The notes under the pieces: model-generated | The model's input: the letters and a program-made list of their open reading frames with translations, nothing else | Databases searched by the model: none | What the model was told of the DNA's origin: nothing | Translations under genes and position numbers: made by a program | Shown: in pieces, positions 14,145 to 57,978 of the stretch | How the letters are laid out: the number at the start of each line of letters is the position of its first letter | Numbering within the stretch: the first letter of the stretch is position 1 | Assembly (NCBI RefSeq): GCF_011058255.1 | Contig: NZ_JAALFH010000062.1 | Location: 84,376 to 148,375, forward strand | From: Thioalkalivibrio sp. XN8 | GTDB lineage: Bacteria; Pseudomonadota; Gammaproteobacteria; Steroidobacterales; XN24 | Reading direction: 5' to 3' | DNA length: 64,000 nt

Positions 14145-16085
14145 ATGTGCGGCCTCGCGGGCATCCTCCATCTCGAAGGCGACGGCATCGTAACACGCCG
14201 CGAACTCGAGCCCATGGTGGCGGCTTTGGCGCCGCGCGGGCCCGACGGCACCGGTTACTACACGGAGCCGGGCATCGGCCTCGGGCACGCCCGCCTGAGC
14301 ATCATCGACCTCGCCGGCGGCGACCAGCCGATCCACAACGAGGACCAGACCGTCTGGACGGTGTTCAACGGCGAGATCTTCAACTACGTCGAGCTGCGCG
14401 CGGAGCTTGAGACGCGCGGCCATTGTTTCTACACTCAGACCGACACCGAGGTCATCGTCCACGCCTACGAGGAATACGGCGACGATTTCCCGAGCCACCT
14501 GAACGGCCAGTTCGCCATCGCCCTTTGGGACGCGCCGCGCCGCCGGCTGCTGCTGGTGCGCGACCGGCCCGGCATCCTGCCGCTGTACTTCACCCACGAC
14601 CCGGGCCGGCTCTTGTTCGCCTCGGAAGTGAAGGCGCTGCTGCCCGCCATGCGGCGTCGGCCGGCACTGGACCCGGCCGCGCTGAACCAGCTGATGACCT
14701 TCTGGGCACCGGTCAGCCCGGCGTCCCTGTTCCAGGGCGTCGAGGAGGTTTCACCGGGCGAGATGGTCGTGGTCGAGAACGGCCGCCTGCGCCGACAGCG
14801 CTACTGGGAATGGACCTTCCCGGGGGACGGCGAATACCTCCGCGGCAGCGCCGAAGAGTTGGCCGAGGAGTTGCACGAGCTGCTGCTCGACGCGACGCGG
14901 CTGCGGCTGCGCGCCGACGTGCCGGTGGGCGCGTACTTGTCGGGCGGGCTCGACTCCTCCGGCATCGCGGGCCTGGTGAAGCACTCCGGCCATCCTCATC
15001 TCCGGACTTTCTCGATCCGCTTCGAGGACCCGGGCGTGGACGAGACCGAGCACCAGGAGCGGATGATCCGGCACCTCGGCACCGACCACACCTCGATCCT
15101 GTGCCGCAACGCCGACATCGCCGACATCTTCCCGCGCGTGATCGCGCGCACCGAGGCGCCCGTGCTGCGCACCGCCCCGGCGCCGATGTCGATCCTCTCG
15201 GGCCTGGTGCGGCAGCAAGGCTACAAGGTGGTGCTGACCGGCGAAGGCGCCGACGAGGTGCTGGGTGGCTATGACCTGTTCAAGGAGGCCAAGATCCGCC
15301 AGTTCTGGGCCCGCCAGCCGGACTCGAAGTGGCGCCCCGCCCTGCTGAAGAAGCTCTATCCGTACCTCGACCTGAACCAGCGCAGCGGCAGCGCGTACCT
15401 GAAGCAGTTCTTCGGCCAGGGCCTGGACGACCCGGAGGCGATGGGGTTCTCCCACTTGCCACGATGGTCCACGACCGGCAAGACCCGCGACTTCTTCAGC
15501 CCGGAATTCCGCGCCACCATCACCGATGATCCCGAGGCGACACTGGCCGCGCGCCTGCCCGCCGGGTTCTCGCGCTGGCATTCCTTCAACCGGGCCCAGT
15601 TCCTCGAGGCCCGGACGCTGATGGCCGGGTATCTCCTGAACAGCCAGGGCGACCGGATGCTGATGGCCAACTCGGTGGAGGGTCGCTTCCCCTTCCTCGA
15701 CCACCGCATCATCGAGTTCGCCAATCGTCTGCACCCGACCATGAAGATGCGCGGGCTGAACGAGAAATACCTGCTGAAGAAGGCACTGACACGGCACCTG
15801 CCACGGGAGACCGTGGCGCGCTACAAGCAGCCCTACAGGGCTCCGGACATCGCCGCCTTCTTCGGCGCAGGCGGCCCGCCGGACTACGTGCGGGAGTGCC
15901 TGAGCCCCGAGTCATTGCAGGCTACCGGCTATTTCGACGCCCAGCGCGTGCAGCACCTGTTGAAGAAGATCGAGCATGGGCGTGTGATCGGGTTCAAAGA
16001 TAACATGGCGTTTCTTGGCGTATTGTCGACCCAGTTGTGGCACCGGACGTTCGTCGAAGAGCGGCCGGCGCAGGTCACGTCATAG
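14145..16085 (+). CDS. Glutamine-dependent amidotransferase, asparagine synthetase (AsnB)-like
   Basis: The 646-residue protein starts MCGLAGILH, with the N-terminal Cys2 nucleophile of the class II glutaminase domain exposed after Met removal. The synthetase domain carries the ATP-pyrophosphatase loop LSGGLDSSG near residues 266-274 and the later LTGEGADEVLGGYDL block. AsnB-like enzymes of this size are known in exosortase A/PEP-CTERM loci, where they are thought to form an amide on an exopolysaccharide component. The following genes are a carrier protein and an acyl-AMP ligase, so the substrate may be carrier-bound. A plain asparagine synthetase role is possible but less likely in this context. 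Confidence 0.85.
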   Translation: MCGLAGILHLEGDGIVTRRELEPMVAALAPRGPDGTGYYTEPGIGLGHARLSIIDLAGGDQPIHNEDQTVWTVFNGEIFNYVELRAELETRGHCFYTQTDTEVIVHAYEEYGDDFPSHLNGQFAIALWDAPRRRLLLVRDRPGILPLYFTHDPGRLLFASEVKALLPAMRRRPALDPAALNQLMTFWAPVSPASLFQGVEEVSPGEMVVVENGRLRRQRYWEWTFPGDGEYLRGSAEELAEELHELLLDATRLRLRADVPVGAYLSGGLDSSGIAGLVKHSGHPHLRTFSIRFEDPGVDETEHQERMIRHLGTDHTSILCRNADIADIFPRVIARTEAPVLRTAPAPMSILSGLVRQQGYKVVLTGEGADEVLGGYDLFKEAKIRQFWARQPDSKWRPALLKKLYPYLDLNQRSGSAYLKQFFGQGLDDPEAMGFSHLPRWSTTGKTRDFFSPEFRATITDDPEATLAARLPAGFSRWHSFNRAQFLEARTLMAGYLLNSQGDRMLMANSVEGRFPFLDHRIIEFANRLHPTMKMRGLNEKYLLKKALTRHLPRETVARYKQPYRAPDIAAFFGAGGPPDYVRECLSPESLQATGYFDAQRVQHLLKKIEHGRVIGFKDNMAFLGVLSTQLWHRTFVEERPAQVTS

Positions 16086-16124
16086 ATAACAAGCAGACAG
16101 CATCGGGTTTGGGGGAGCGCACTC

Positions 16125-16382
16125 ATGTCGACCGAGGTCAAGGACCAGATCAAGCAGTACATCCTTGAGACGTACCTGTTTACGAGCGACACCAGTGCGC
16201 TCGGCGACGACGAGTCCTTCCTGGACCGCGGCATCATCGACTCCACCGGCGTCCTCGAGCTGATCTTCTTCCTGGAGGAACAGTTCGGAGTGAAGATCGC
16301 CGACGAGGAGCTGCTGCCCGAGAACCTGGATTCCGTCAGCCGGCTCACCGCCTTCGTCGAGCGCAAGCGCGCCGCCGCCTGA
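16125..16382 (+). CDS. Acyl carrier protein 1
   Basis: The 85-residue acidic protein contains GIIDSTGVLELI, in which the Ser of the DS motif is the predicted 4'-phosphopantetheine attachment site. Helical acidic flanks such as FFLEEQFGVKI complete the fold. It is a stand-alone carrier that would hold an acyl or aminoacyl thioester. It lies between the AsnB-like gene and an acyl-AMP ligase, 17 bases before the latter, so the ligase is its probable loading enzyme. A second, diverged carrier is encoded at 20591-20845 on the other strand. Confidence 0.87.
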   Translation: MSTEVKDQIKQYILETYLFTSDTSALGDDESFLDRGIIDSTGVLELIFFLEEQFGVKIADEELLPENLDSVSRLTAFVERKRAAA

Positions 16383-16399
16383 GCGGCGCCCGGCCACCC

Positions 16400-17965
16400 A
16401 TGGGACGCCCCGCATACCGCGCCCTGCTGCACGACGCGCTGGCGGACGGGGCCGAGGCGACGCCCGACAAGGTCGCGGTGCATGTCGGCGACGAGCAGCT
16501 GACCTACGCCGAACTCGCCAGTCAGTCCGATCGGCTCGCCGCAGCCCTTCAGCAGCGGGGCGTCCGCCGCGGCGACCGGGTCGCCATCTTCATGGACAAC
16601 ACCCTGGCCTGCGCACCGGCGATCTATGCCGTGCTCAAGGTGGGCGGGGTGTTCGTCATGGTCAACCCCCAGACCAAGCACGACAAGCTGCGCTTCATCT
16701 GCAACGACTGCTCGGTCCGGGCGCTGATCACCGATAGCCACCTGGCGCCCGTAGCCGGCGGCCTGCCCGACGACGTGCCGAGCGTAAAGAGCGTGCTGTT
16801 CTCGGGCGACCCGGCGGCGGCCGGCGCGCTGAGCGGCCGCCAGGTCGAGGCCGAGCCGCTGGCCGGCGTGCTCGATGCCGCGCCCGCTGCGCCCCAGCCG
16901 CCGGGCACCATCCCGAGCGACCTGGCGGCATTGATCTACACCTCCGGCAGCACCGGCAACCCGAAGGGCGTGATGCACTCCCACCAATCCATGACCTTCG
17001 CGTCGGGGAGCCTGGTCGAATACCAGCGCCTCGCGCCGGACGACGTCATGCTGAATGTGCTGCCGATGGCCTTCGACTATGGGCTGTACCAGCTGTTGAT
17101 GGCGGTGCGCATCGGCGCGACCCTGGTGCTGGAGCGCTCCTTCACCTACCCCGCCGAGGTATTCGCGCGCATGCGCGAGCACGACGTCACCCATTTTCCG
17201 GGCGTCCCCACCGTCTACGCCATCATGATCGCCGCGCACCGGCGCAGCCCGCTCAGCTTTCCCTCGGTCCGGCGTGTCACCAACACGGCTGCCGCGCTGC
17301 CGCCTGCCTACCTGGAGACACTGCGGGAGATCTTCCCCAATGCGCTGATCTTCTCCATGTACGGCCTGACCGAGTGCAAGCGGGTCAGTTACCTGCCGCC
17401 GGAGTGGCTGGAGCGCAAGCCCGGCTCGGTCGGCATCGCCATCCCGGGCACCGAGGTCTACCTGCGCTCCCCAGAGGGCGAAGCGGTGCCGGTCGGCGAG
17501 CCTGGGATTCTCCACGTGCGCGGCCCGCACCTCATGCGCGGCTACTGGAACAACCCGGAGCGCACGGCCAAGATACTGCATCCGGGGGAGCTCGAGGGTG
17601 AGCGCGTGCTGTGCACGGGCGACTGGTTCCGGATGGACGAGGATGGCTGCCTGTATTTCCTCAGCCGCAGCGACGACATCATCAAGACCCGAGGCGAGAA
17701 AGTCAGCCCGGCCGAGGTCGAGGCGGCGCTGTGCAGCATCCCCGGGGTCCGCGAGGCGGTGGTGGTGGGCGTCCCCGACCCGACGCTGGGCCAGGCCGTG
17801 AAGGCCTTCGTCGTCCCGGCCGAGGGAGCCGCGCTCGACCCGCGGCGGTTGCGCTTCGAGCTGACCCAACGGCTGGAGAACTTCATGGTGCCGCAGGAAG
17901 TCGTGGTGCTCGAAGAGTTCCCCAAGACGCCGAACGGTAAGATCGATCGGAAGGCACTGCAATGA
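16400..17965 (+). CDS. Acyl-AMP ligase, exosortase-A-associated acyl-CoA ligase type
   Basis: The 521-residue protein has the ANL superfamily motifs in order: P-loop IYTSGSTGNPKGV, LPMAFDYGLYQLL, MYGLTECKRVSYLPPEW, CTGDWF, the hinge GEKVSPAEVE and a C-terminal PNGKIDRKAL with the catalytic Lys. FDYGLYQ and the TECKRVSYL block resemble the acyl-CoA ligase described from exosortase A loci. The absence of the amino-acid A4 Asp (FDxS) suggests a carboxylic acid rather than an amino acid. It should adenylate an acid and load the carrier encoded just upstream. Its stop overlaps the start of the next gene by four bases (ATGA). Confidence 0.85.
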   Translation: MGRPAYRALLHDALADGAEATPDKVAVHVGDEQLTYAELASQSDRLAAALQQRGVRRGDRVAIFMDNTLACAPAIYAVLKVGGVFVMVNPQTKHDKLRFICNDCSVRALITDSHLAPVAGGLPDDVPSVKSVLFSGDPAAAGALSGRQVEAEPLAGVLDAAPAAPQPPGTIPSDLAALIYTSGSTGNPKGVMHSHQSMTFASGSLVEYQRLAPDDVMLNVLPMAFDYGLYQLLMAVRIGATLVLERSFTYPAEVFARMREHDVTHFPGVPTVYAIMIAAHRRSPLSFPSVRRVTNTAAALPPAYLETLREIFPNALIFSMYGLTECKRVSYLPPEWLERKPGSVGIAIPGTEVYLRSPEGEAVPVGEPGILHVRGPHLMRGYWNNPERTAKILHPGELEGERVLCTGDWFRMDEDGCLYFLSRSDDIIKTRGEKVSPAEVEAALCSIPGVREAVVVGVPDPTLGQAVKAFVVPAEGAALDPRRLRFELTQRLENFMVPQEVVVLEEFPKTPNGKIDRKALQ

Positions 17966-18888
17966 GCGACACGGCCGAGCTCCAGCCGCAGTTCGACGCA
18001 TTGCTGGCAAGGCTCGAGGCCGAGCTGGAGATCTTGCCCGACAAGCCGGACGAAACCCCGCGCTCGACCCTGCTGTGCCTCTGGGCGCTGGCCGAGGGCC
18101 GCCGGCTGGCGCTGAGCGAACTGCCGAGCTACGCTCCGGGAGCGCTGTCCACAGACCAGTCAGCCCGGCTTGAGACACTCGTCTCGCAGCGCCTCGAAGG
18201 CACGCCACTGGCCCACCTGACCGGGCGCCAGGATTTCCTGGGCGAAGTGCTGCTGGCCTCACCCGCAGCCCTTGTGCCACGCCGCGAGACCGAGCAGCTG
18301 GCACGCACCACCATCGACCGGCTGAGGTCGATCGGCGAAGCATCGCCGCTGGTGATCGACGTCTGCACCGGCGCCGGCAACATCGCCCTGGCAATGGCCG
18401 GCGCGCTGCCGGAGGCCCGCGTCTTCGGCGCCGACCTGTCGGAAGACGCGGTCGACCTGGCGCGGGAAAACGCCCGCTTCCTCGACCGCGAGCGCGTGGA
18501 GTTCCGCTGCGGCGACCTGCTGGCCCCGTTCGAGACCGGGGAGTTCCTCGGCCGAGTGGACATGATCACCTGCAACCCGCCCTACATCTCCAGCGGCCGG
18601 GTCGAGCAGATGCCGGGCGAGATCAGCCGGCACGAGCCGAGGCTCGCCTTCGACGGCGGACCCTTCGGCGTCGGCATCATTCGGAAGCTTTTTTCCTCGG
18701 CGCCCGCCCTGCTCCGCCCCGGCGGCTGGCTGGTACTAGAGGTCGGCCTGGGCCAGGGTCCCGGGCTCGCCCGCAGCCTGGCTGGGCAGCCGGCCTGGAG
18801 CGAGGTGTTGCAACATGCCGACAAGCGGGGCGAGATTCGCGTGATCGAGGCGCGCTTCGAGCCGCCCCACGGAGGAACCGACTCATGA
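17962..18888 (+). CDS. PrmC/HemK-like N5-glutamine-type methyltransferase paralogue
   Basis: The 308-residue protein has the PrmC pattern: GTPLAHLTGRQDFLG, VPRRETEQLA, SAM loop VIDVCTGAGNIAL and the amide-binding NPPYI motif. PrmC methylates the Gln of the GGQ loop in release factors, but here the gene sits between an acyl ligase and a NadE-like gene and overlaps both by four bases. It is therefore probably a specialised copy. An attractive inference is N-methylation of an amide made by the AsnB-like or NadE-like enzyme. A second, housekeeping PrmC would be expected elsewhere in the genome. Confidence 0.78.
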   Translation: MSDTAELQPQFDALLARLEAELEILPDKPDETPRSTLLCLWALAEGRRLALSELPSYAPGALSTDQSARLETLVSQRLEGTPLAHLTGRQDFLGEVLLASPAALVPRRETEQLARTTIDRLRSIGEASPLVIDVCTGAGNIALAMAGALPEARVFGADLSEDAVDLARENARFLDRERVEFRCGDLLAPFETGEFLGRVDMITCNPPYISSGRVEQMPGEISRHEPRLAFDGGPFGVGIIRKLFSSAPALLRPGGWLVLEVGLGQGPGLARSLAGQPAWSEVLQHADKRGEIRVIEARFEPPHGGTDS

Positions 18889-19865
18889 GCCGACTGCATC
18901 CGGGCGTCCTCGAACTCGACGCTGAGGCCGAGATCGAACGCATCTGCCAGGCGATCCGGACGCAGCTCTCGACGAAGCTGCACCGGCGCGGCCTGGTGCT
19001 GGGCATCTCCGGTGGCATCGACAGCGCCGTCTGCGCCGCGCTCAGCGCGCGTGCCGTCGGCGCCGAGCGGGTCCAGGGATTGCTGATGCCCGAGACCGAC
19101 TCGTCTTCGGCGACGACGCCGCGCGGCCAGCTGGTGGCCGACACCCTCGGCATCCGCACCCTGACGGAGGACATCTCCGGGACGCTCGAGGCCATCGGCT
19201 GCTACCGCTGGCGCGACGAGGCGATCCGGGCCGAATTCCCGGACTACGACGGCAGCTGGCCGCACAAGCTGGCGATCCGCGGCGGCCAGGAGGGCCGCGT
19301 GAATCATTTCGTGCTGGTGGTGCAGCGGCCGGACGGGGAACAGGAAGAACGCCGCCTCGGCCTGAACAGCTACCTGCAGATCGTCGCCGCGACCAACTTC
19401 AAGCAGCGTATCCGCAAGACTCTCGAGTACTTCCACGCCGACCGGCTCAACTACGCCGTAGTCGGCACGCCCAACCGGCTGGAGTACGACCAGGGCTTCT
19501 TCGTCAAGAACGGCGACGGCGCCGCCGACCTCAAGCCGATCGCCCACCTGTACAAGACCCAGGTGTATGCGCTGGCCGAGAAGTTGGGCATTCCCGAAGA
19601 AGTACGACGCGCCGCACCGACCACCGACACCTACAGCCTGGTGCAGGGCCAGGATGAGTTCTACTTCGCCCTGCCCTACCACCAGATGGACTTGGCGCTG
19701 TGGGGCGTGAACCACGGCCTCGGGGCCGACGAGATCGCCGCGGGACTCGGCATCACCGACGACCAGGCAGCATTCGTCTGCAAGGATATCGCCGCCAAGC
19801 GCCGCTCGACCCGCTATCTCCAGCTCCCGCCGCTGCTGGTCGAGGACGTGCCGGAGATCCGGTAG
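18885..19865 (+). CDS. NAD synthetase (NadE)-like ATP-pyrophosphatase amide ligase
   Basis: The 326-residue protein carries the PP-loop GISGGIDSAV at residues 40-49. The NadE-type core follows, with ATNFKQRIRKTLEY, VVGTPNRLEYDQGFFVKNGDGAADLKPIAHLYKTQV and an AAPTTDTYS segment. The canonical family has VGTGNKSE and PSAGL at the corresponding sites, so the substrate pocket appears altered. An extra segment near residues 105-160 (YRWRDEAIRAEF to VNHFVLVVQ) is not typical. Genomic context is an amide/carrier block, so amidation of a polysaccharide acid or carrier-bound acid is more likely than NAD synthesis. Start and stop overlap the neighbours. Confidence 0.78.
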   Translation: MSRLHPGVLELDAEAEIERICQAIRTQLSTKLHRRGLVLGISGGIDSAVCAALSARAVGAERVQGLLMPETDSSSATTPRGQLVADTLGIRTLTEDISGTLEAIGCYRWRDEAIRAEFPDYDGSWPHKLAIRGGQEGRVNHFVLVVQRPDGEQEERRLGLNSYLQIVAATNFKQRIRKTLEYFHADRLNYAVVGTPNRLEYDQGFFVKNGDGAADLKPIAHLYKTQVYALAEKLGIPEEVRRAAPTTDTYSLVQGQDEFYFALPYHQMDLALWGVNHGLGADEIAAGLGITDDQAAFVCKDIAAKRRSTRYLQLPPLLVEDVPEIR

Positions 19866-20590: not shown

Positions 20591-20845
20591 CTATTGCGCC
20601 TCGACCTGCCGCTCCACGAAATTCGCGATCCGGCGCAGGGACTGCAGTTCCTCGAAGTCCAGTTCGAGCACGTCGATCTTAATGCCGTACTGCTGCTCGA
20701 GCTCGTAGATCAACCCGACCAGAGACAGCGAGTCCACCAGGCCCGACTCGAACAGGTCCTCGTCCGGCGAGTCGACGATGAGGTTAAGCCGCTCGCGGAA
20801 GAGTCGGGTGAGGTCCTCGATAGTGACAGGCGTCGGGGTATTCAT
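20591..20845 (-). CDS. Acyl/peptidyl carrier protein 2
   Basis: The 84-residue protein has GLVDSLSLVGLIYELEQQYG; the Ser after Asp is the phosphopantetheine site. It is the last gene of the reverse operon and its ATG overlaps the GNAT stop by four bases, so the two are translationally coupled. With a stand-alone adenylation enzyme two genes upstream, it is the likely acceptor of an activated amino acid. It shares only the generic carrier fold with the protein encoded at 16125, so the two carriers probably serve separate pathways. Confidence 0.87.
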   Translation of the reverse strand: MNTPTPVTIEDLTRLFRERLNLIVDSPDEDLFESGLVDSLSLVGLIYELEQQYGIKIDVLELDFEELQSLRRIANFVERQVEAQ

Positions 20846-21351
20846 TGGCTAGCGAACTCTTCCTGGAGCAGGTCGAACAGCGTCCGGTCGACCGTGCGGT
20901 CGCCGAGACGGTGGCAGCGGCGCTGGATGCCGATGCGACGGAACCCGTGCCGCTCAAGCACGCGTTCCGAGGCAGGATTGCCCGTGGCCACCCACGCCCA
21001 GGCGCTTTCCAGTCCGAGCTCGCCGAAGCCATGCGCCAGCAGCGCGCCGACGGCACGACTGGTCAGGCCCTGGCGCGCGAAACGCTTGTCGCCGAGGACG
21101 TACCAGACCATGGCGGTGCGTGACTCAGGAGCGATATTGCTAAACGCCACCAGGCCGGCCGGCGTCTCCGTCTCATCGCCCGCCGTAAATATCCGGAGAC
21201 AGTGCACGGGTCGCAAGCACATCGCGCGCAGCGTCAACGGAGTGAGGCTGTGGACATCTTCACCGAAATCCAACCACGGTGAATGGGCCGGGTCGGCGGT
21301 CCACCCGGCTGCAAGCTCGATCAGTTCGTTATCCAATTCCAGTAAGCGCAC
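20842..21351 (-). CDS. GNAT N-acetyltransferase (RimJ-like) in the adenylation operon
   Basis: The 169-residue protein begins at a GTG (21351) one base after the adenylation-enzyme stop, giving VRLLELDNELIEL. The reading frame stays open much further upstream, inside the adenylation gene, but that part has no homology pattern. GNAT features are the VWYVLGDKRFARQGLTSRAV segment, corresponding to motif A, and NPASERVLERHGFRRIGIQRR at the C-terminus, typical of RimJ/RimL proteins. It would transfer an acyl group from acyl-CoA, or possibly from the carrier, to an amine. Placement between adenylation enzyme and carrier suggests action on the carrier-bound amino acid or on the sugar that receives it. 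Confidence 0.75.
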   Translation of the reverse strand: MRLLELDNELIELAAGWTADPAHSPWLDFGEDVHSLTPLTLRAMCLRPVHCLRIFTAGDETETPAGLVAFSNIAPESRTAMVWYVLGDKRFARQGLTSRAVGALLAHGFGELGLESAWAWVATGNPASERVLERHGFRRIGIQRRCHRLGDRTVDRTLFDLLQEEFASQ

Positions 21352-21352
21352 C

Positions 21353-22939
21353 TCAGGCCCCGAACAATCCTCGTAAAGCGACACGATCGACCTTGCCGTT
21401 CTGATTGCGCGGCAGCGCTTCCAGCCGCTCCCAACGGCTCGGCAACATGTAGGAAGGGAGCAACGCCGACAAGGCGCGGCGCAGAACCGCCGCTTCCGCC
21501 ATCTCGTCGCCGTCAGGAACGAAAGCGCAGCAGATGGTCTTACCGTTGAAGTCCGCGGCATCCACGGCGACGATCGCGGACTCGCGCAGTCCGGCCAGCG
21601 TATGCATTGCGGCCTCGATCTCGCCCAGTTCGATGCGGTAGCCGCGGCTCTTGACCTGGGTGTCGGCGCGGCCGTGGAAGTAATAGAGGCCATCGCTTCC
21701 TCGACGCGCAAGGTCGCCGGTCCGGTAGATCCGCAGGGCGCCACCCCCGGGCGCCGGCCAGTCAAGGAATGCGGCGGCCGTCTTCTCCGCGTCCTGCCAG
21801 TAGCCGGGGCTGAGGCCGACGCCCGCGATATAGAGGTCGCCGACCACCTCCGGCGGGCATTCCTTCATCTCGCCATCCAGCACCAGCAGTCGCTCTCCCT
21901 CGCAGGGCTGCCCGATGGGAATCTCGGCCCGCGGGTCTGCGGGCCTCTCGGTCGGCGAGTACCAGCTCGAGGCGATGGTTGCTTCGGTCGGGCCGTAGAG
22001 GTTGGTGAACTGGACGTGCGGCAAGCGTTCCATCAGGTAAATTAGGGTCGGAGTCGGCAGCGCCTCGCCGCACCAGATCATCCGCTTCAGCCCAGGAAAG
22101 TCCCCTGGCCGCACGACATCGAAACGTGCCAACAAGTTGAGCGCCCCGGGCACCGAAAACCACTGGGTGAGCTCGCGATCGGCGATGAACTCGCGCAGTT
22201 TCGGCGCGAGGATGTTGGCGCTCTTCGGGACGAAATGCAGCTCCGCGCCGGCGGCCAGGGCACCATAGAGATCGAAGGTGCTGAGATCGAAAGCCAGCGG
22301 CGAATGGGCCGAGATCCGCTCACCGGGTCTGATGCCGAAATGCTTAACGCCCCAATCCACGAAAGAGATCACGTTGGCATGGGTGATGACCACGCCCTTC
22401 GGTACGCCGGTGGAGCCAGAAGTAAAAAGGAGGTGCGCCGGGGAATATGAGGAGCGCCCCTTGCGCCGCAGCGGCGCATCGCTCTCGAGGCCCCCGAGGT
22501 CGAGCGAGCTCTGGAATCGATCGCCGGCGAGCGGCTGCTCCTGCAGCGCCATGACCTGGGCGGACAACGTATCGAGCTCGGCCAACACACCATCGAGGAG
22601 CTTGGCGGCAGCCGCCGAAACCATGACCACTCGCGGCGCTGCTGCCCGCAGCACATGGGCCACGCGGGGCGCCGGGCTGTCGGCATCGACCGGGACGTAG
22701 ACCCCGCCGACCTCGAGCACCCCGAGGATGCCGGCAATCGTATCGATCGAGCGGGGCGCGATGACCGCCACCCGATCCCCGGGCGCCAGTCCCGCCGCCG
22801 CCAGGCGGGCGCCGATCACCCCGGCCCGTCGGGCCAGGCCCACGAACGAGATCGTGTCGTCGCCGTCGCGCAGCGCCACGCCGTCCGGCCAGCGCTCGGC
22901 GGCGCGGTGCAGGTAGTCCTGCAGTTCGCGGACGGCCAT
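21353..22939 (-). CDS. Stand-alone amino-acid adenylation enzyme (NRPS A-domain)
   Basis: The 528-residue protein contains the NRPS adenylation core motifs: A3 LLFTSGSTGVPKGV (about 170-183), A4 FDLSTFD (217-223) whose Asp binds the alpha-amino group, A5 NLYGPTEATI (313-322), A7 YRTGDLARR, A8 GRADTQVKSRGYRIELGEIE, and A10 NQNGKVDR with the catalytic Lys. It has no condensation, thiolation or thioesterase domain, so it is a free-standing aminoacyl activator. The nearby carrier (20591) would be its partner. Such A/PCP pairs make aminoacyl thioesters for tailoring in natural-product and surface-glycan pathways. Amino-acid preference was not predicted. Confidence 0.9.
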   Translation of the reverse strand: MAVRELQDYLHRAAERWPDGVALRDGDDTISFVGLARRAGVIGARLAAAGLAPGDRVAVIAPRSIDTIAGILGVLEVGGVYVPVDADSPAPRVAHVLRAAAPRVVMVSAAAAKLLDGVLAELDTLSAQVMALQEQPLAGDRFQSSLDLGGLESDAPLRRKGRSSYSPAHLLFTSGSTGVPKGVVITHANVISFVDWGVKHFGIRPGERISAHSPLAFDLSTFDLYGALAAGAELHFVPKSANILAPKLREFIADRELTQWFSVPGALNLLARFDVVRPGDFPGLKRMIWCGEALPTPTLIYLMERLPHVQFTNLYGPTEATIASSWYSPTERPADPRAEIPIGQPCEGERLLVLDGEMKECPPEVVGDLYIAGVGLSPGYWQDAEKTAAAFLDWPAPGGGALRIYRTGDLARRGSDGLYYFHGRADTQVKSRGYRIELGEIEAAMHTLAGLRESAIVAVDAADFNGKTICCAFVPDGDEMAEAAVLRRALSALLPSYMLPSRWERLEALPRNQNGKVDRVALRGLFGA

Positions 22940-22944
22940 CCAGT

Positions 22945-23979
22945 TCAGTCCTGGCCCGCTATCGCGAGGCGGAAGACCTGGCCAGTGTGCTCGAGCTCCT
23001 CCTGGTCCGGCGGGATGTCCAGGATGAAGGTGCGGAAGCCCTGCGCGATATAACCGGCGATGAGCTTCGCCACCTGTGCATGGCTGCCGACCAGGTAGGG
23101 GCAGAAGGTTTTGCCGGACTTAAAGGGGTGCAGCCAGTAGACGTCGCGCGCCGGGCCTTCGTCGCTGGCCGACAGCTGCTTGTGCCAGTGCGAGTCCGAG
23201 ACCTTCATCGCCATCTGGTGCTCCAGCTCGCCGCGCCGGTCCTCGGGGAACCGCTCTTCCGCGACGGCCCAGGCCGCTTCAGGGGTGTCGCGCGCGATGA
23301 TCCCGACCCGGACCCCGAAATCGATCCCGGCGTCCGGCGGCAGCCCGGGCTCTTTGCCCGGCGGCTGGGGGTAGCGGATCGCAGTGGCGCCGACCTGCTG
23401 GGCGCAGGCCAGCCCGGCCGGCGAAGAGCCGGACAGCAGAATGCCCGGCTGCAGCTCGTCCGGGACCGGGGGCGACATCTTGAGGCCCTGGACCTTGTAG
23501 TAGCGCCCCTCAAAGCTGTAGCCGCGCGGGTTCTCCAGCACGCCGCGGATGACCTGGGTGAACTCGCCGGTGCGCAGGTAACGGTCGTCGTGCGGGGTCT
23601 CGTCCCCGAGTGCCTGGAGGTCGTTGACAAAGCCGCCCGCCAGCATGTTGAGGTAAAGCCGGCGTCCGTGCATGAAGGCCATCGAGGCCACCATCTTGGC
23701 CACGGAGTAGGGATGCATGTAAATGGGCTGGACGGCGACGAGGGGCGCCAGCGACTCCGTCGCATGCAAGATCTCCTGGCTGACGAGCCATGGATCGACC
23801 AGCGAGTTGTCGGTGTAGACGAGGATGCCGCGGCAGCCCGCCTCCTCGCTCCAGCGCGCCACATCGGCCACGCGCGCAAGATAATCGGGACTCGCGCTGT
23901 CCTTGGATTGCGGGCACGTCGAGAAGACGTCGATATCGCGGAACGTCGGCGTTGTACTGCGGTTAACTTCACTGGACAT
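22945..23979 (-). CDS. Luciferase-like (LLM class) flavin-dependent monooxygenase
   Basis: The 344-residue protein has the bacterial luciferase/alkanesulfonate-monooxygenase TIM-barrel pattern: an early IDVFSTCPQSK strand, YTDNSLVDPWLVSQEIL, AGGFVNDLQALGDETPHDDRYLRTGEF (loop residues typical of FMN binding), and SGSSPAGLACAQQVG. Members use reduced flavin and O2. It starts the tight cluster with the adenylation enzyme (five bases) and carrier, and such enzymes occur in several natural-product loci as hydroxylases acting on carrier-bound amino acids. Sulfonate use is possible, but no sulfur-assimilation genes are adjacent. Confidence 0.83.
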   Translation of the reverse strand: MSSEVNRSTTPTFRDIDVFSTCPQSKDSASPDYLARVADVARWSEEAGCRGILVYTDNSLVDPWLVSQEILHATESLAPLVAVQPIYMHPYSVAKMVASMAFMHGRRLYLNMLAGGFVNDLQALGDETPHDDRYLRTGEFTQVIRGVLENPRGYSFEGRYYKVQGLKMSPPVPDELQPGILLSGSSPAGLACAQQVGATAIRYPQPPGKEPGLPPDAGIDFGVRVGIIARDTPEAAWAVAEERFPEDRRGELEHQMAMKVSDSHWHKQLSASDEGPARDVYWLHPFKSGKTFCPYLVGSHAQVAKLIAGYIAQGFRTFILDIPPDQEELEHTGQVFRLAIAGQD

Positions 23980-24035: not shown

Positions 24036-25151
24036 TCAGTTGTTCCCGGGCGCCTCTTCAAAGGGTTCGAAGCGAATGCCCATCAACCACTCGCCCTCGA
24101 TGCGAGAAATGTTGTTGTCGAGGGTCAGCACCGCGTCCAGGATTTCCTTGTTGCCGGAATGGACCAGTACCCGGTGGCCGAACGATATGCGCGAGCGATA
24201 CGAGGCCAGGACATCGGCGACCCGGCCATCGATCCGACCGCTAACCGCGTGTACGTCCCTGCGCGCCGCCTCTGCCATCAGGGCCGCGAAAACACGGGGC
24301 AAGCTGCGGGGGACAGCTTGCAGGTCCAGCACCTGGAACACCCCGTCGGGCCGGGCCTGGCCGATGAACCAGCCGATCACGCCGCGCGAATCCTTTACCT
24401 CGCAGGCCACCGCTTCGCCGAAATAGGAGTACGCCGTCAGCTGGCGAAAGATCCAATCCACGAGCTCCGGGGAATACACCATCCGGAGCCGGACCCCGGT
24501 ATCCACGGTTGCCGCAAGCTCTGCGAATCTTCCGGCGGACAGCGGCGTTGCCTCCGGCAACGGAACAGGGGGCCTGTGCAAAGCCTTGTTCCAGCGCCCG
24601 TCGGCCAATCGATCGACCACCACAGCCAGTGGGTGCAGGGCGCGCGCAAGGAAACGGAAGGCCCTGCGCCGGCGTCTGGCCAAAGACTTTGTTGCCGCTC
24701 TTGCCGGGCGGAGCGAAATGGTCCATTCGATGCTCTGCGGGACCGCCACCTTGCCCCCGAGCAGCTCCCAAAGCTTGCTGACGCCGGCGCCCGCACCATC
24801 GGAAAGGGTCAGCTCCTGTCCCGCCTGTACGGCTGCCTTGATGAGCTGGGCGCCCGCAGCCTTGGTGCGGAGCTCGGGAACCACGAACACGGGCCCAACC
24901 GACGCAAGCCTGCGGCGCACGCCATCAAACTCGAACTCCCGGACCTGTACGCCCTGGAATCCTGCAACCTCACCGCCGGCCTCCAGGACCAGCGAGGGAA
25001 GATCCGCTGCGCAAACCGGCGCCTCGATGAAGAGCTTCCGGAACTCGCTCTCGAGGCCCGCCGGCGCCGGCCCCGTGCCCCGGCGGATGATTCTCTGATA
25101 AAGAGCCGCCACTTCGGGAATGTCTTTGCCTTCCAAGGGACGGATGATCAT
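24036..25151 (-). CDS. Two-domain GNAT-type acyltransferase
   Basis: The 371-residue protein starts MIIRPLEGKDIPEVAALYQRII, a typical GNAT N-terminus, with PVFVVPELRTKAAGAQLIKAAV as the acyl-CoA-binding segment. A long C-terminal region (about 190-371) has a second, weaker acyltransferase-like fold around MVYSPELVDWIFRQLT. The start at 25151 is chosen because upstream in-frame residues overlap the GT2 gene and lack the pattern. It is one of four GNAT-like proteins spread over the locus. It may acylate an amino sugar of the repeat unit; substrate unknown. Confidence 0.68.
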   Translation of the reverse strand: MIIRPLEGKDIPEVAALYQRIIRRGTGPAPAGLESEFRKLFIEAPVCAADLPSLVLEAGGEVAGFQGVQVREFEFDGVRRRLASVGPVFVVPELRTKAAGAQLIKAAVQAGQELTLSDGAGAGVSKLWELLGGKVAVPQSIEWTISLRPARAATKSLARRRRRAFRFLARALHPLAVVVDRLADGRWNKALHRPPVPLPEATPLSAGRFAELAATVDTGVRLRMVYSPELVDWIFRQLTAYSYFGEAVACEVKDSRGVIGWFIGQARPDGVFQVLDLQAVPRSLPRVFAALMAEAARRDVHAVSGRIDGRVADVLASYRSRISFGHRVLVHSGNKEILDAVLTLDNNISRIEGEWLMGIRFEPFEEAPGNN

Positions 25152-25173
25152 GAGCGAAGACCTCGACGGCAGC

Positions 25174-26088
25174 CTACCGGGACCCTGGGGAGACCGCGAG
25201 CTGAGCCACGGCACGACGCTTGCCCCTGGTCAGGACATGCCAATGATATTCCCTGAGAAACTTGCGGAACTCCGGGTTCTCGTAGCGAGGAAGCCGCCTC
25301 AAGGCGCTACGAATCCAGCCCCAGAGCACTGCCATGCTGCCGATAACGTAGGGCCGCTCATTGAGCCGAAACGCCGCGCTGGCCATCATGTAAAGCAATC
25401 CTGTGCCCATGAAATACTGCCCGTAGCCGTGCCGCATCCGGCCGGTCAGGATGCCCTGCTGACTGGAGCCCATCGGCCGGAGATGGACGAACCGGAGCTC
25501 CGGCTCGTCCCAGCTGCAAGCCACCCAGCCTCGCATTCGACACATGTGACAATCAATGCCGTCCCACATGACCTCGCGCACGAACCCGCCGATCGCCTCG
25601 AAGCACGAGACCCGGTAGAACTTCGTCATGCCGAGCGACGTGTCATCCCCGTGACGTTCGAACACCAATTCCCCGTCCCGCTCGATGTAGGCTTTGCCGC
25701 TGCAGGTCGCGATGCGGGGATCTGCCTCCATGCGTCTCATCAGCAACTCAAAGTATCGCGGCGGCAGCTCCAGGTCGAGGTCGAGCTTGCAAAGATAATC
25801 GAAGTCCTCTGGATCAAATGTCCGGTAACCGGCATAGAACGCGTCGATGACCCCGGGACCGACGGCCCTGTGCCCCCGGTCTTCCCGGGTAACCACTTCT
25901 ATCCAGGGATGTGCTTCCGCATACTCCCGCAGAATCGCCGGCGTCTCGTCGGTTGACCCATCGTCCACGATCACCCACCTGGCCGGTTGCTCGGACTGGG
26001 CGATGACACTGTCGAGAGTCCGGCGCATGTACCTGGCCTCGTTCCTGCATGGCGAGACGAGAACGTAGCGCCTTTCGCGTGTAGCCAT
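25174..26088 (-). CDS. Family 2 glycosyltransferase
   Basis: The 304-residue protein starts MATRERRYVLVSPCRNEARYMRRTL with GGAG five bases before the ATG. The GT-A signature WVIVDDGSTDETPAIL and the KLDLDLELPPRYFE metal-binding region are clear. The C-terminal half has hydrophobic segments (YGQYFMGTGLLYMMASAAF) suggesting membrane association. Start 13 codons upstream is possible but lacks a ribosome site. It is the promoter-proximal gene of the reverse operon and probably adds one residue to the lipid-linked repeat. Confidence 0.83.
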   Translation of the reverse strand: MATRERRYVLVSPCRNEARYMRRTLDSVIAQSEQPARWVIVDDGSTDETPAILREYAEAHPWIEVVTREDRGHRAVGPGVIDAFYAGYRTFDPEDFDYLCKLDLDLELPPRYFELLMRRMEADPRIATCSGKAYIERDGELVFERHGDDTSLGMTKFYRVSCFEAIGGFVREVMWDGIDCHMCRMRGWVACSWDEPELRFVHLRPMGSSQQGILTGRMRHGYGQYFMGTGLLYMMASAAFRLNERPYVIGSMAVLWGWIRSALRRLPRYENPEFRKFLREYHWHVLTRGKRRAVAQLAVSPGSR

Positions 26089-26227
26089 CGGTACTCCAAA
26101 ATCTCCTTTCGAAACACAGTATTTCAAACCATCCGGCCATAATGTTAACTGGCTCTAAGTTCAGATCTCAGTCGCCCGGATAATAGCAAGACCGCTTGGT
26201 TGCCAAGACAGACAGGGACACATCAAA

Positions 26228-32489: not shown

Positions 32490-32491
32490 GT

Positions 32492-34902: not shown

Positions 34903-35551
34903 GGCTCGTGCCGTTGAGCTGGCGCAGGATTCGGGCCGCAGCCGCAGCGGCCCCGCAGCCGTTGTCGATGTTCATGACCGTGACCCCGCTCGCGCAGCTC
35001 GACAGCGCGGCATGCAGGGCGGCCCTGCCTCCTTCGGAAACTCCATAGCCGACGCTCGTAGGCACTGCGATTACCGGCTGGGGGAAAAGTCCTCCTACGA
35101 CCGACGGCAAAGCACACTCGAAGCCGGCGAAACAAATGACCACCTGGCAACCATCGAGGGTCTTTCGATGTGCCAGCAACCGATGCAGGCCGGCGACTCC
35201 GCAATCCCCGCACTCGGTGGCGGTCCCGCCGAGAAACTCCAGGGTGATTAGGCTCTCGCGGACGACGGGCAGGTCAGAACTGCCACCGTATACAAAGGCG
35301 ACACGTCCGGGCAGCGGGTCCGGAAGTGTTCGGATCATGCGAAAGGTTCGGGAGACCGGTTCGTAGATGCCGTCAAGGCCCGCGACTTGCTCGGGCAGGC
35401 ACCGCGTTACCAACAGGTTCAGACCCCGCTCTTCGTGCAGACGCGCTATCTCAACAAGCTGCTCCGGCAACTTGCCGGCGCCATAAATGATCTCGGGCAG
35501 GCCGATGCGTTCCTGGCGTTGGAAATCGAGGTCAATATCAAGATGAGACAT
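34883..35551 (-). CDS. larB: LarB, nicotinic acid adenine dinucleotide carboxylase/hydrolase
   Basis: The 222-residue protein has the AIR-carboxylase-like LarB core: RIGLPEIIYGAGKLPEQLV, VYGGSSDLPVVRESLITLEFLG, CGVAGLHRLL and GGLFPQPVIAVPTSVGYG. LarB carboxylates NaAD at C5 and cleaves the phosphoanhydride to start NPN synthesis. The Cys in GDCGVAGLH and later in CGAAAAAAR are of interest because LarB uses a catalytic Cys that reacts with the pyridinium. It follows larE after nine bases and overlaps larC. Confidence 0.92.
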   Translation of the reverse strand: MSHLDIDLDFQRQERIGLPEIIYGAGKLPEQLVEIARLHEERGLNLLVTRCLPEQVAGLDGIYEPVSRTFRMIRTLPDPLPGRVAFVYGGSSDLPVVRESLITLEFLGGTATECGDCGVAGLHRLLAHRKTLDGCQVVICFAGFECALPSVVGGLFPQPVIAVPTSVGYGVSEGGRAALHAALSSCASGVTVMNIDNGCGAAAAAARILRQLNGTSHAVVAG

Positions 35552-35560
35552 GGTGCGGTG

Positions 35561-55220: not shown

Positions 55221-56726
55221 TTAGGGGCCTGGCTGCCAGCGCAGGCTGGCGCCAGAGTTCTCCAGGAACCGCTCAAGAACCGCTCGGGCCTCGTCGCAGC
55301 CCGGCTCGCACTCCTTCGACACCGCAACGAGCACGCCGTCGGTTCGCCCGCTGCCGAGAGCTCGCGCCTCGGCCAACTTGGCGGCCAGGCGGCTCGTGAC
55401 CGGCTGCCCGGCAACTTCGTACCAGGCCAGGGTTATCCGCTCGCGGCCGGACAGGCGCCCGACAAACTCGTTGACCGTGATTCGCTCTACGCCGACCTGC
55501 ACCTCGCGCTGGCGGTGCTCGAGCTCCCACCAGTCGCGACCATGGAGGCTCCGTCGGTCCTGGAACAGGTGATGTTCGCGATCCTGCTGGGGATATGCCG
55601 CGCGGTAGGCCTCGACCCGGCCGCCGTCGGCCTGGTACACAGCGGACCCGACACGCGCGTTGCGAAAGCGCGGCTGCCAGCTCGACAGGTCGCCGACGCG
55701 AACCGCATTCCCCATAGTAACCTCGGGTAGCGGAAGGGGCTCGACCTCGTAAGTCACCCGGCCATCGGTCGCGAAAAGCCGCGGCGCGGCGAGCAGCAAC
55801 GCCCCGGCGAGTGCCGCGGCGAGCATCGGTCCCGTGCGGGCGCGAACCCTCGGGGCGGGCATGGTGCGACCGGAAGACGGTTCTTCGTCTTCCTCCTGTT
55901 CCCGGTCCTCCAGTCGTGCGGCGAGTAGCCCCACCGGCACCAGGAAGATCAGGAACAAGACCATGCCATATGCGTAGTGATCGCCAATCAGCCAGTAATC
56001 GAGTCCGAGGTACTGGCCGATCAACACCAGCGTCCAGATACGGACCCAGTTTGACACCAGCGCCGCCGCTATCGCCGCCCCGAGCAGGATCAGGCGATGC
56101 CTCCAGCGCCGGAGGTACATGGCATCGTAGAACAGTGCCAGGGTCAACGCGGAGAGCAGGGTACTCAGGCCGCTGCACGAAGACACCACCTCGAAGGTTC
56201 CGGCGGGAATGTGGATGAAGAATTCCTCGATATGAACCGGGACGTTGCCGAAGCTCATCAGCAAATTGACCATCCGGGTCGCCAGCGCCTGCAGCGCCGG
56301 CTGCAGGACCCAGAACGGCAGCAGTCCGAGATACACGAACCCTGCCGGCATGACGACCCGCTTCGCGGCAGGCCAACCGAACACCAGTGCCGTTGCGGCC
56401 ACGAACATGGGCGGCAGCAGGAGGGCCCGAGATGAATTGATGTAGATGAGCTCCATCGCGACCATCGCCACGACGAGCAGCGCCAGCGGCACGAGGGCCG
56501 ACCAGGCGGGCCCGATCCGCTCCGGCGGGTCGCGACGCCAGTGGGTCCAGCCGATCCAGGCGGCCAGCCCAAGCACCAGGTAGCCGTGGGAGTATGCACT
56601 GACCCCAAAAAACGAGTACCAGCTTCCTGCCACCCACGACAGGATCGAAGGCATGCCGATGATAGCCCCGGCGGCCAGCAGCGCCGTGGCGATCAGCATG
56701 GTCGGGTCGAGCGTCCTGGCCCACAT
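55221..56726 (-). CDS. xrtA: Exosortase fused to EpsI (XrtA type)
   Basis: The 501-residue protein has eight or more transmembrane helices in the N-terminal 300 residues, with the exosortase triad in place: Cys184 in VVSSCSGLSTL, Arg229 in SNWVRIWTL and His250 in IGDHYAYG. The C-terminal 200 residues (after about 300) form the EpsI domain, with an EpsI-like segment WWELEHRQREVQVGVERITV and ITLAWYEVAG. Exosortase recognises PEP-CTERM signals and cleaves them during surface export; EpsI is often fused or adjacent. ATG 56726 is used; the frame is open 53 codons further upstream, and no strong ribosome site decides. The substrate gene at 3892 is in the same window. Confidence 0.92.
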   Translation of the reverse strand: MWARTLDPTMLIATALLAAGAIIGMPSILSWVAGSWYSFFGVSAYSHGYLVLGLAAWIGWTHWRRDPPERIGPAWSALVPLALLVVAMVAMELIYINSSRALLLPPMFVAATALVFGWPAAKRVVMPAGFVYLGLLPFWVLQPALQALATRMVNLLMSFGNVPVHIEEFFIHIPAGTFEVVSSCSGLSTLLSALTLALFYDAMYLRRWRHRLILLGAAIAAALVSNWVRIWTLVLIGQYLGLDYWLIGDHYAYGMVLFLIFLVPVGLLAARLEDREQEEDEEPSSGRTMPAPRVRARTGPMLAAALAGALLLAAPRLFATDGRVTYEVEPLPLPEVTMGNAVRVGDLSSWQPRFRNARVGSAVYQADGGRVEAYRAAYPQQDREHHLFQDRRSLHGRDWWELEHRQREVQVGVERITVNEFVGRLSGRERITLAWYEVAGQPVTSRLAAKLAEARALGSGRTDGVLVAVSKECEPGCDEARAVLERFLENSGASLRWQPGP

Positions 56727-56871
56727 AGTTGCGGGAATGCTACCAGCCTCGGCGCGTTCGTTGCGGGCACAGTTCGCATTTCTCGACCCCGCGCACGGTT
56801 TCGTGAACTGCCTCCTTGACGCCGGCCAGGCCGGCGGCTGGAATGCCCGCAAATCTACTGGAGCACGCCTC

Positions 56872-57978
56872 TTGACCCGCCCCACGCCGCCGCCGGTCTA
56901 CTGGCTTCTCGGCCTGCCTTTCGACGCCGTGGACCTGGACGGCGCCGCGCGGCTGATCCGTGACCATGCCCGGACCGGCAGCCGACTGGTCTTCGCCACG
57001 CCGAACCTGAACTTCCTGCGCAGCAGCCGCGAGCGGCCGGCCTTCCGCGACGACGTGCTACGGACGGACCTGTCCCTGGTCGACGGCATGCCGCTGGTCT
57101 GGCTCGGCCGGCTGGCCGGCATCCGGTTCACCGAGCGGGTCGCCGGCAGCAGCCTGGTCGAACGGCTGGTCGAGCCGACCGAACCCGCCGAACGCATCCC
57201 GACCTTTTTCTTCGGCGCGGAAGACGACGCTGCCGAGCGCGCGCTGGCGCGGGTCAACGACCCGCCCTCGGGCCTCCGCGGCGTCGGCGCGCTCAATCCG
57301 GGGCACGGCAGCGTCGAGACCCTCAGCGCGCCCGGCGTGATCGAGGCGATCAATCGAAGCGGCGCCGTGTTCCTCGTGGTTTCCCTTGGCGCGGTCAAGG
57401 GGCATGCCTGGATCGAGCACAACCGGGACCGGCTCAGGCCTGCTGTCATCAGTCACCTGGGCGCGGTCGTCAACTTTCTCGCCGGCACTGTCAGGAGGGC
57501 GCCGGCGTTGCTGCAGAAGCTCGGGCTGGAGTGGGCCTGGCGGATGGCCCAGGAACCCCGGCTCTTCAGCCGCTATTTTGGGGATGGCCTGTTCCTGCTG
57601 CGGCTGCTGGTGAGCGCGGCCGTCCCGATCTGGCTGCAGGAAAGGCGCCTGGCAGCGCCAGGCCTCGAGATCCCGCCTTCCACAAGCTGCGGAAAATACT
57701 GGGTTTTCAGGCCACGAGGCTCGATCACGGCGAACAATCTCGACCTGCTCGCGTCAGTCTTGGAGAAGGCCCAGGGCGACGAAACGACCGGGGTGGAACT
57801 CGACATGCGCGGTGTTGACTACCTGGATGCCCGGGCGCTGGGCTACCTCTACGCGCTCCGCCACCGGCCGGGGGCGCCCTGCCGACCGCGAGTCACGGGG
57901 ATCAACCCGCGCCTCGCGCGCCTCGTGCGGCGCCAGCACGCCGAGTGTCTATGGGACGACCCGACCCAGCTGTCATAA
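56872..57978 (+). CDS. WecG/TagA/CpsF glycosyltransferase fused to a STAS-like domain
   Basis: The 368-residue protein starts at a TTG (56872) with GGAG eight bases upstream. The N-terminal 250 residues are a GT26 (WecG/TagA/CpsF) enzyme with RLVFATPNLNFLRSSRE, LVDGMPLVWLGRLAG and RVAGSSLVERL, used to transfer a UDP-sugar to a lipid-linked acceptor. After about residue 265 comes a separate domain, GKYWVFRPRGSITANNLDLL, GVELDMRGVDYLDARALGYLYALR, ARLVRRQHAECLW, that looks like a STAS/anti-anti-sigma fold. In that fold the conserved Ser/Thr is at the DxxxL position. A GT-STAS fusion is unusual and may connect chain synthesis to a kinase or anti-sigma partner. STAS assignment is by pattern only. 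Confidence 0.78.
   Translation: MTRPTPPPVYWLLGLPFDAVDLDGAARLIRDHARTGSRLVFATPNLNFLRSSRERPAFRDDVLRTDLSLVDGMPLVWLGRLAGIRFTERVAGSSLVERLVEPTEPAERIPTFFFGAEDDAAERALARVNDPPSGLRGVGALNPGHGSVETLSAPGVIEAINRSGAVFLVVSLGAVKGHAWIEHNRDRLRPAVISHLGAVVNFLAGTVRRAPALLQKLGLEWAWRMAQEPRLFSRYFGDGLFLLRLLVSAAVPIWLQERRLAAPGLEIPPSTSCGKYWVFRPRGSITANNLDLLASVLEKAQGDETTGVELDMRGVDYLDARALGYLYALRHRPGAPCRPRVTGINPRLARLVRRQHAECLWDDPTQLS

Follow-up and report, generated by a model that had tools for sequence, protein, structure and literature searches.

We examined a biosynthetic gene cassette in the window, the whole 64,000-nucleotide stretch of Thioalkalivibrio sp. XN8 DNA analysed here. Four open reading frames (ORFs), all on the minus strand, follow one another in the order luciferase-like FMN monooxygenase (LLM), stand-alone amino-acid adenylation enzyme (A-domain), GNAT acyltransferase and carrier protein (Table 1). 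The genes are as closely packed as the initial annotation had described, with a gap of 5 bp separating the LLM stop from the A-domain start, a gap of 1 bp from the A-domain stop to the GNAT start, and a 4 bp overlap between the GNAT and carrier genes. A longer ORF in the GNAT frame, beginning at 21765, merely overlaps the A-domain gene, and the GTG at 21351 is the GNAT start. The cassette exceeds the interval 20591–23979, since a tandem-GNAT gene just upstream of the LLM gene belongs to it; the likely start of this gene, judged by eye, is the ATG at 25151. The cassette sits among surface-polysaccharide biosynthesis genes, and the probable family 2 glycosyltransferase gene listed upstream of it is perhaps carried on the same transcript.

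Table 1. Features of the cassette and its neighbours in the window.
Feature	Coordinates	Strand	Evidence
Second carrier operon: AsnB-type amidotransferase, ACP, AMP ligase, PrmC-like methyltransferase, NadE-like synthase	14145..19865	+	Profile matches
Carrier protein (PCP/ACP), 84 aa	20591..20845	-	PF00550 44.6 bits
GNAT acyltransferase, 169 aa, GTG start at 21351	20842..21351	-	PF13302 50.6 bits, PF00583
Stand-alone amino-acid adenylation enzyme (A-domain), 528 aa	21353..22939	-	TIGR01733, PF00501, PF13193
LLM, luciferase-like FMN monooxygenase, 344 aa	22945..23979	-	PF00296 107.4 bits
Tandem-GNAT acyltransferase, 392 aa as longest ORF	24036..25214	-	Homologues in loci, AF2 fold
Probable family 2 glycosyltransferase, upstream of cassette	25174..26127	-	ORF and position; family by eye
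Exosortase (EpsH type)	55221..56885	-	TIGR02602 128.7 bits against a cut-off of 105.55

The A-domain scores 364.5 bits against TIGR01733 (AA-adenyl-dom), over the curated cut-off of 317.4, and contains all six core motif patterns (A3–A10), the alpha-amino-binding Asp at 235 and the A10 Lys at 517. The FDxS motif first noticed by reading the sequence is present as FDLS, and the enzyme is, as had been supposed, of the amino-acid type without a condensation (C) or release (TE) domain. The DSL site ascribed to the carrier is also there, with the phosphopantetheine site lying within VDSLSL and its serine invariant in the window protein and in all 73 carrier ORFs that score 60 bits or more.

The substrate pocket of the A-domain (DLFFICLIAK in the window, DLFFLCLIAK in the family) is nearly constant across phyla within the main A family. 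Beside the same LLM family there is also a second, distant A family, whose pocket is much like it. Aligned with the pocket of DltA (DLMTLCTVA), the family sequence DLFFLCLIA is identical at five of nine positions (D235, L236, L299, C301 and A331) and the window protein at four of nine; the cysteine at position 301, presumably equivalent to C269 in the D-alanine pocket of DltA, is kept in the window A-domain. Because this near-constant pocket resembles that of DltA, the sequence suggests a small amino acid as substrate, most likely glycine or alanine. The nearest structure, the top PDB match LgrA, was set aside as evidence for glycine, as the match sums the scores of several LgrA stretches. Like DltA/DltC, the cassette combines a stand-alone A-domain with a carrier that would hold a small amino acid; it differs in its partners, an LLM and acyltransferases. 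Membership in the Dlt system is ruled out by the scores despite the similar pocket: the A-domain reaches 278.6 against a DltA cut-off of 476, and the carrier, whose best NCBIfam match is DltC, reaches 43.1 bits against a cut-off of 68.

The monooxygenase named in the initial annotation is confirmed as a member of the LLM family (PF00296). Its predicted structure (AF2, mean pLDDT 90.9) is a luciferase-type TIM barrel that superposes on MsuD with Z 33.7 and rmsd 2.4 over 323 residues at 28% identity (VIA-align), the same fold as in SsuD/MsuD. It is nevertheless not an SsuD-type sulfonatase, because it scores 116.9 bits against the sulfonatase (SsuD/MsuD) cut-off of 518.2 and five catalytic positions are replaced. 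At C54, W196, H228, R297 and Y331 of SsuD, which together with R226 we take to be active-site positions, the window LLM has L, Y, G, G and P, although the alignment has gaps around 297, and R226 is the sole residue kept. The same five positions are replaced in nearly all of 80 relatives (the best 80 of 204). Dependence on F420 is unlikely since no F420 ligase was found in the genome, which has four matches to the FMN-reductase family PF03358; no flavin reductase was found in the operon, and PF01613 had no match in the genome.

To describe the cassette beyond the window, loci were retrieved with the LLM as the sole query. The best 80 of the 204 confirmed relatives were kept, and all counts refer to these nearest relatives; many of the loci are short contigs, and genes were called as ORFs. 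An A-domain lies directly behind the LLM in 68 of the 74 loci, from many phyla, that extend at least 1.2 kb past it, a pairing beyond chance in a set fetched by the LLM alone. Pairwise LLM and A-domain distances are correlated (r = 0.75, 53 rows, with none of 2000 permutations as high), a correlation to which shared host ancestry may contribute, and the LLM tree is a quick version. The proposal that the four genes are conserved together thus holds in part: LLM, A-domain and carrier form a unit, whereas the GNAT is optional and all four families, this GNAT included, occur together in 12 of the best 80 loci. The cassette appears to be portable and spread over bacteria of many phyla. Among 369 genomes of the class, with the best four candidates scored per genome, the LLM (E ≤ 1e-30) and the A-domain orthologue (E ≤ 1e-130) were both found solely in the genome of origin. 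A description of the cassette was not found in the open-access full-text literature with narrow sets of search terms, which is weak evidence of absence.

Homologues of the window GNAT, which have WLDFG and CH-x(3)-DR-like blocks in common, occur in 12 of these 80 loci; at E ≤ 1e-15 the GNAT was found in its own genome alone among 59 searched in the order. The slot between A-domain and carrier is optional, and a formyltransferase can occupy the same place; for this reason the likelier role of the GNAT is to cap the tethered amino acid, not to transfer it, which departs from the earlier idea of an acyltransferase that receives the oxidised amino acid. A better candidate, and the probable transferase of the cassette judging from its modelled fold, is the tandem-GNAT protein. 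Its homologues are present in 33 of the best 80 loci at 150 bits or above; a lenient threshold raises this to 36 of 80, counted within 6.5 kb. The predicted structure (AF2, mean pLDDT 88.3) has two GNAT domains in tandem and an N-myristoyltransferase/Eis-like fold (Z 20.1, rmsd 5.4, 300 residues), with sequence identities of about 9–16% to the matched structures.

The cassette lies near polysaccharide genes more often than control stretches do. With AsnB and the four loci that donated queries (L023, L025, L045 and L056) left out, polysaccharide genes are present in 20 of the 39 remaining long loci and in none of 20 control stretches, all from one genome, in a scan with phmmer queries that misses distant families. 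Keeping the query donors gives 24 of 43 long loci; an earlier count that included both AsnB and the donors gave 25 of 43 long loci and 39 of 80 of any length, again with 0 of 20 controls. Since about half of the long loci (19 of 43) have no polysaccharide match, a glycan target is not general.

Our preferred explanation, which we hold with about even confidence, is a portable amino-acid tailoring cassette that loads an amino acid, oxidises it on the carrier, caps it and transfers it. As its motifs and pocket suggest, the A-domain would adenylate glycine or alanine and load the carrier phosphopantetheine. The LLM, with FMNH2 from a separate reductase, would then oxidise the aminoacyl thioester on the carrier, with the alpha carbon as the most likely site; it is plausible that an amino acid is oxidised in this carrier-bound state, the substrate, chemistry and product being inferred from the genes. 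The GNAT, or elsewhere the formyltransferase, may cap the tethered group, probably on nitrogen, and the tandem-GNAT protein would pass the finished acyl group on to an acceptor, which here is most likely a polysaccharide sugar; an amino sugar, the target first suggested, would be a hypothetical acceptor. What speaks for this reading is the co-conservation of LLM, A-domain and carrier, the nearly constant pocket, the invariant carrier serine, the lost sulfonatase active site, the predicted folds, the four FMN-reductase matches in a genome with no F420 ligase, and the polysaccharide enrichment. What speaks against it is that the tandem GNAT is present in just 33 of the 80 loci, that 19 of 43 long loci show no polysaccharide match, that neither a flavin reductase in the operon nor a PF01613 match was found, that the exosortase link is confined to the window, and that the same LLM clade occurs in NRPS/halogenase clusters on plasmids. 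A precedent is the butirosin side-chain pathway (BtrJ ligase, BtrI carrier, BtrO LLM and BtrH transferase), in which an amino acid is held on a stand-alone ACP, oxidised there by an LLM and then transferred to an amino sugar; BtrO acts on the carrier-bound acyl chain. The likeness, at the level of gene roles, is an LLM beside a stand-alone carrier. The butirosin loader is an ATP-grasp ligase and that of the cassette an NRPS-type A-domain; further differences are that no decarboxylase was seen among the named gene clusters and that the cassette occurs in bacteria of many phyla. More tentatively, and with considerable doubt, the cassette may be a cross-phylum module in which glycine or alanine is oxidised on the carrier and given interchangeable formyl, acetyl or carbamoyl caps, yielding a family of decorations on surface polysaccharides that are possibly alpha-hydroxylated or hydroxamate-like. 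If the proposal is right, a widespread gene set makes a surface decoration by NRPS-like chemistry and on-carrier oxidation, the cassette could serve as a marker to predict new sugar modifications from genomes, and A-domain, carrier and LLM would constitute a compact three-protein system in which the action of a flavin enzyme on a tethered amino acid is directly accessible in vitro.

The long loci lacking a polysaccharide match would also fit a cassette that makes a small, diffusible metabolite derived from an amino acid, perhaps for metal binding or signalling, with the polysaccharide context secondary. So would the company kept by the same LLM clade on plasmids (36–50% identity in seven records from Rhizobium, Tritonibacter, Gemmobacter and Streptomyces), where it adjoins A-domain genes in all five records viewed, in NRPS-like clusters with halogenase, P450, acyl-CoA dehydrogenase or PPTase genes nearby whose product is probably no glycan. 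The pockets of these plasmid A-domains (DVFVLCTVAK, DMFAVGGCCK, DALLLGAVCK and others) and their neighbouring genes differ from those of the cassette. The polysaccharide enrichment over controls and the want of a release domain in the window cassette argue against a diffusible product, which we consider rather unlikely. A more distant plasmid LLM (Priestia, 28% identity) has no A-domain annotated beside it.

Less probable still is a Dlt-like aminoacylation of the glycan, with unmodified glycine or alanine transferred by the tandem GNAT and the LLM acting on a sugar or free metabolite. The DltA-like pocket and the DltC match of the carrier are in its favour, but an LLM acting elsewhere is hard to reconcile with a gene that directly precedes the A-domain and diverges with it. 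We regard as very improbable a route in which the LLM oxidises the amino nitrogen and formyl, acetyl or carbamoyl capping gives hydroxamates that could bind metals at the surface. Among 66 loci the formyltransferase never co-occurs with the GNAT (17 and 11 alone, p = 0.053) or with a carbamoyltransferase (17 and 28 alone, Fisher p = 2e-5), as if these were alternative caps. However, neither exclusion is significant once relatedness is corrected for (seven independent pairs, median p 0.5 and 1), so the pattern is a hint at most; GNAT and carbamoyltransferase co-occur in 5 of the 66 loci, and N-hydroxylation is unusual for the luciferase-like flavin family.

Two further features of the window were followed into the fetched loci. 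The exosortase, which is over the cut-off of its EpsH-type model and below that of the XrtA model (153.2 against 208), had neither homologues nor accompanying PEP-CTERM-like tails in these loci (flanks of up to 10 kb); its link to the cassette was therefore rejected as a general feature and belongs to the window alone. One of the 80 loci, from Azospirillum halopraeferens (L064), has homologues of the second carrier operon next to the LLM cassette, the methyltransferase being the one gene without a counterpart there.

All four ORFs that the initial annotation had described as a mini-NRPS operon lie on the minus strand at the positions it gave, and the family names assigned to the four proteins match our profile-library results. 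The genes run in the order luciferase-like monooxygenase (LLM), stand-alone adenylation enzyme (A-domain), GNAT acyltransferase and carrier, with a single spacer base between the A-domain stop and the GNAT start, and a 4-base overlap between the GNAT and carrier genes. The proposed unit is real and interesting.

Features of the window discussed in the text
Feature	Coordinates	Strand	Remark
LLM	22945-23979	minus	
A-domain	21353-22939	minus	
GNAT	20842-21351	minus	GTG start at 21351
Carrier	20591-20845	minus	
Two-domain (tandem) GNAT	24036-25214	minus	upstream of LLM; likely start 25151
Putative glycosyltransferase	25174-26127	minus	probable; upstream, same strand as cassette
Exosortase	55221-56885		profile match
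Protein with PEP-CTERM-like tail	3892-4560	plus	tail seen by eye; consistent with the exosortase
Second carrier operon	14145-19865	plus	AsnB-type, ligase_PEP_1-like, PrmC-like and NadE-like genes
Lar genes	31143-36385	minus	
Gene within the Lar stretch	32492-33697		
Two ORFs	38213-39104	plus	resemble IS3-type transposase parts (by eye)

Neither the LLM (E <= 1e-30) nor the A-domain (E <= 1e-130) was found outside the window's own genome among 369 genomes of the class. Among 296 genomes of the order the LLM was likewise confined to that genome at E <= 1e-20, and two congeneric genomes are without it. Scanning a species-genome collection with an alignment of the LLM clade yielded 204 confirmed relatives; the best 80 of these have identities of 54-74% and span eleven phylum-level groups, including Pseudomonadota, Acidobacteriota, Actinomycetota, Planctomycetota, Gemmatimonadota, Nitrospirota, Myxococcota and Deinococcota. 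Phyla are intermixed on the LLM tree (19 changes where 10 would be the minimum, on a quick tree), which suggests, short of proof, lateral transfer.

Among the 74 of these 80 loci that extend 1.2 kb or more beyond the LLM, 68 have a same-strand A-domain within 150 bp behind it; in four others the A-domain is upstream (L066, L071, L077 and L082), and it is absent from the available stretch of L075 and L076. With a lenient HMM threshold and a limit of 6.5 kb from the LLM, the carrier was detected in 61 of 80 loci (plus eight with a second carrier type) and the A-domain in 57 (plus 19 with a second A type), with the tandem GNAT in 36, a carbamoyltransferase in 29, a formyltransferase in 23 and the GNAT in 12. 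Both A-domain and carrier accompany the GNAT in all 12 loci, the A-domain of L049 being on the opposite strand. At 150 bits or more, the tandem GNAT occurs anywhere in 33 and the formyltransferase in 20 of the 80 loci. For the 66 loci that extend 3.5 kb downstream, the same threshold gave GNAT in 11, formyltransferase in 17, carbamoyltransferase in 28 and tandem GNAT in 31, while 15 lacked GNAT, formyltransferase and carbamoyltransferase alike. The LLM tree (67 rows) requires at least 6, 13, 11 and 11 changes for GNAT, formyltransferase, carbamoyltransferase and tandem GNAT, respectively. From these locus counts and repeated changes, LLM, A-domain and carrier form the core, the remaining genes being exchangeable modules. 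Distances between LLMs correlate with those between A-domains (r = 0.75, 53 rows; highest of 2000 permutations, 0.16), a correlation to which shared host ancestry may contribute. Four Gemmatimonadota loci (L054, L073, L079 and L085) have a pair of carrier ORFs, of which one is located at or behind the A-domain and the other behind the GNAT.

Together with its homologues in the 12 loci, the window GNAT forms a recognisable family distributed over several phyla; elsewhere a formyltransferase homologue lies between A-domain and carrier or immediately alongside. In the 66 loci the formyltransferase never co-occurs with the GNAT (p = 0.053) or with the carbamoyltransferase (p = 2e-5), but neither pattern is significant once relatedness is corrected for. 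The predicted model of the tandem GNAT (pLDDT 88.3) resembles N-myristoyltransferase and Eis (Z about 20, r.m.s.d. about 5.4 over 300 residues, 11% identity), which supports an acyltransferase but no particular substrate. In Methylocaldum and Methyloversatilis, an ORF (7626-9707 of L022, and its match in L020) sits between carbamoyltransferase and LLM; a scan of the L022 copy placed the iron-containing redox domain PF14518 at its C-terminus.

The window A-domain has all six core motif patterns, each detected in 56 to 76 of 79 relatives, some of whose ORFs are cut by contig ends. Aligned to GrsA PheA, its pocket is DLFFICLIAK, with column 278 read as F or S by eye (a one-residue uncertainty) and as F by MAFFT in both alignments. 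The 51 orthologues above 480 bits carry DLFFLCLIAK (37), DLFFMCLIAK (5), DLFFICLIAK (2) or one to three differences (7). In another, more remote A family (about 220-280 bits) adjoining the same LLM, the pocket is mostly DLHFLCLIAK or DLSFLC[LIV]IAK, with DLFFLCLIAK in L071 and L077. Among the pockets compared, DltA is closest, identical at five of nine positions to the family consensus and at four of nine to the window protein; on this similarity we read the pocket as one for glycine or alanine, the choice and the stereochemistry not being fixed by it.

The predicted LLM model (pLDDT 90.9) superimposes on MsuD (Z 33.7, r.m.s.d. 2.4 over 323 residues, 28% identity), SfnG (Z 32.1) and SsuD (Z 29.8). 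The SsuD residues C54, W196, H228, R297 and Y331, which we take to be catalytic, are replaced in the window protein by L, Y, G, G and P, and in the 80 relatives by L or I (77), Y (79), G (80), Y (79) and P (79); as the alignment has gaps near 297, the window's G at this position, where the relatives have Y, could be artefactual. SsuD R226 is retained in all 80. By these comparisons the LLM is no sulfonatase but a distinct family. The LLM is the sole PF00296 protein of its genome, which has no match to the flavin reductase family PF01613, no F420 ligase and four PF03358 matches, making FMNH2 from a separate reductase the likely cosubstrate.

The proposed oxidation of an amino acid on the carrier fits these data and the butirosin precedent, in which the LLM BtrO acts on a carrier-bound acyl chain. 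The suggested amino sugar target is consistent with the window locus and with roughly half of the remaining loci. The window contains an AsnB-type amidotransferase, a family 2 glycosyltransferase, a DegT-type aminotransferase and genes resembling sugar-nucleotide enzymes (by eye); in Azospirillum halopraeferens (L064), homologues of the window AsnB, ACP, ligase and NadE adjoin the cassette. No homologue of the window exosortase was detected in any of the related loci. Among cassette loci 18 kb or longer, with AsnB and query-donor loci excluded, at least one polysaccharide match occurred in 20 of 39, at least two in 13 and at least three in 8, against 0 of 20 control stretches from the window's own genome. 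Nineteen of 43 long loci have no such match, among them those of Bradyrhizobium, Methylocaldum and Methyloversatilis; in these the acceptor may be of another kind. The component genes are of known kinds, and narrow literature searches found no description of their combination, spread and exchangeable caps.

A plasmid search placed a related LLM clade in seven records (36-50% identity) among 26 matches, with A-domain or AMP-binding genes close by in all five viewed; a more distant plasmid relative (28% identity) has no A-domain annotated alongside. Near the plasmid LLMs are genes for tryptophan halogenase (L012, L013, L014), P450 (L010, L011, L013, L014), acyl-CoA dehydrogenase (L011, L012) and PPTase (L010, L011, L012). 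These LLMs perhaps represent an unstudied natural-product role for the same enzyme family.

The window polysaccharide locus also holds a nickel-pincer racemase set, with LarB, LarC and LarE over cut-offs and a LarA-like racemase below those of the named LarA families. The tabulated gene within this stretch matches no Pfam family at 1e-4; it has homologues in six of 80 cassette loci, and one relative gives weak matches to ATP-grasp models.
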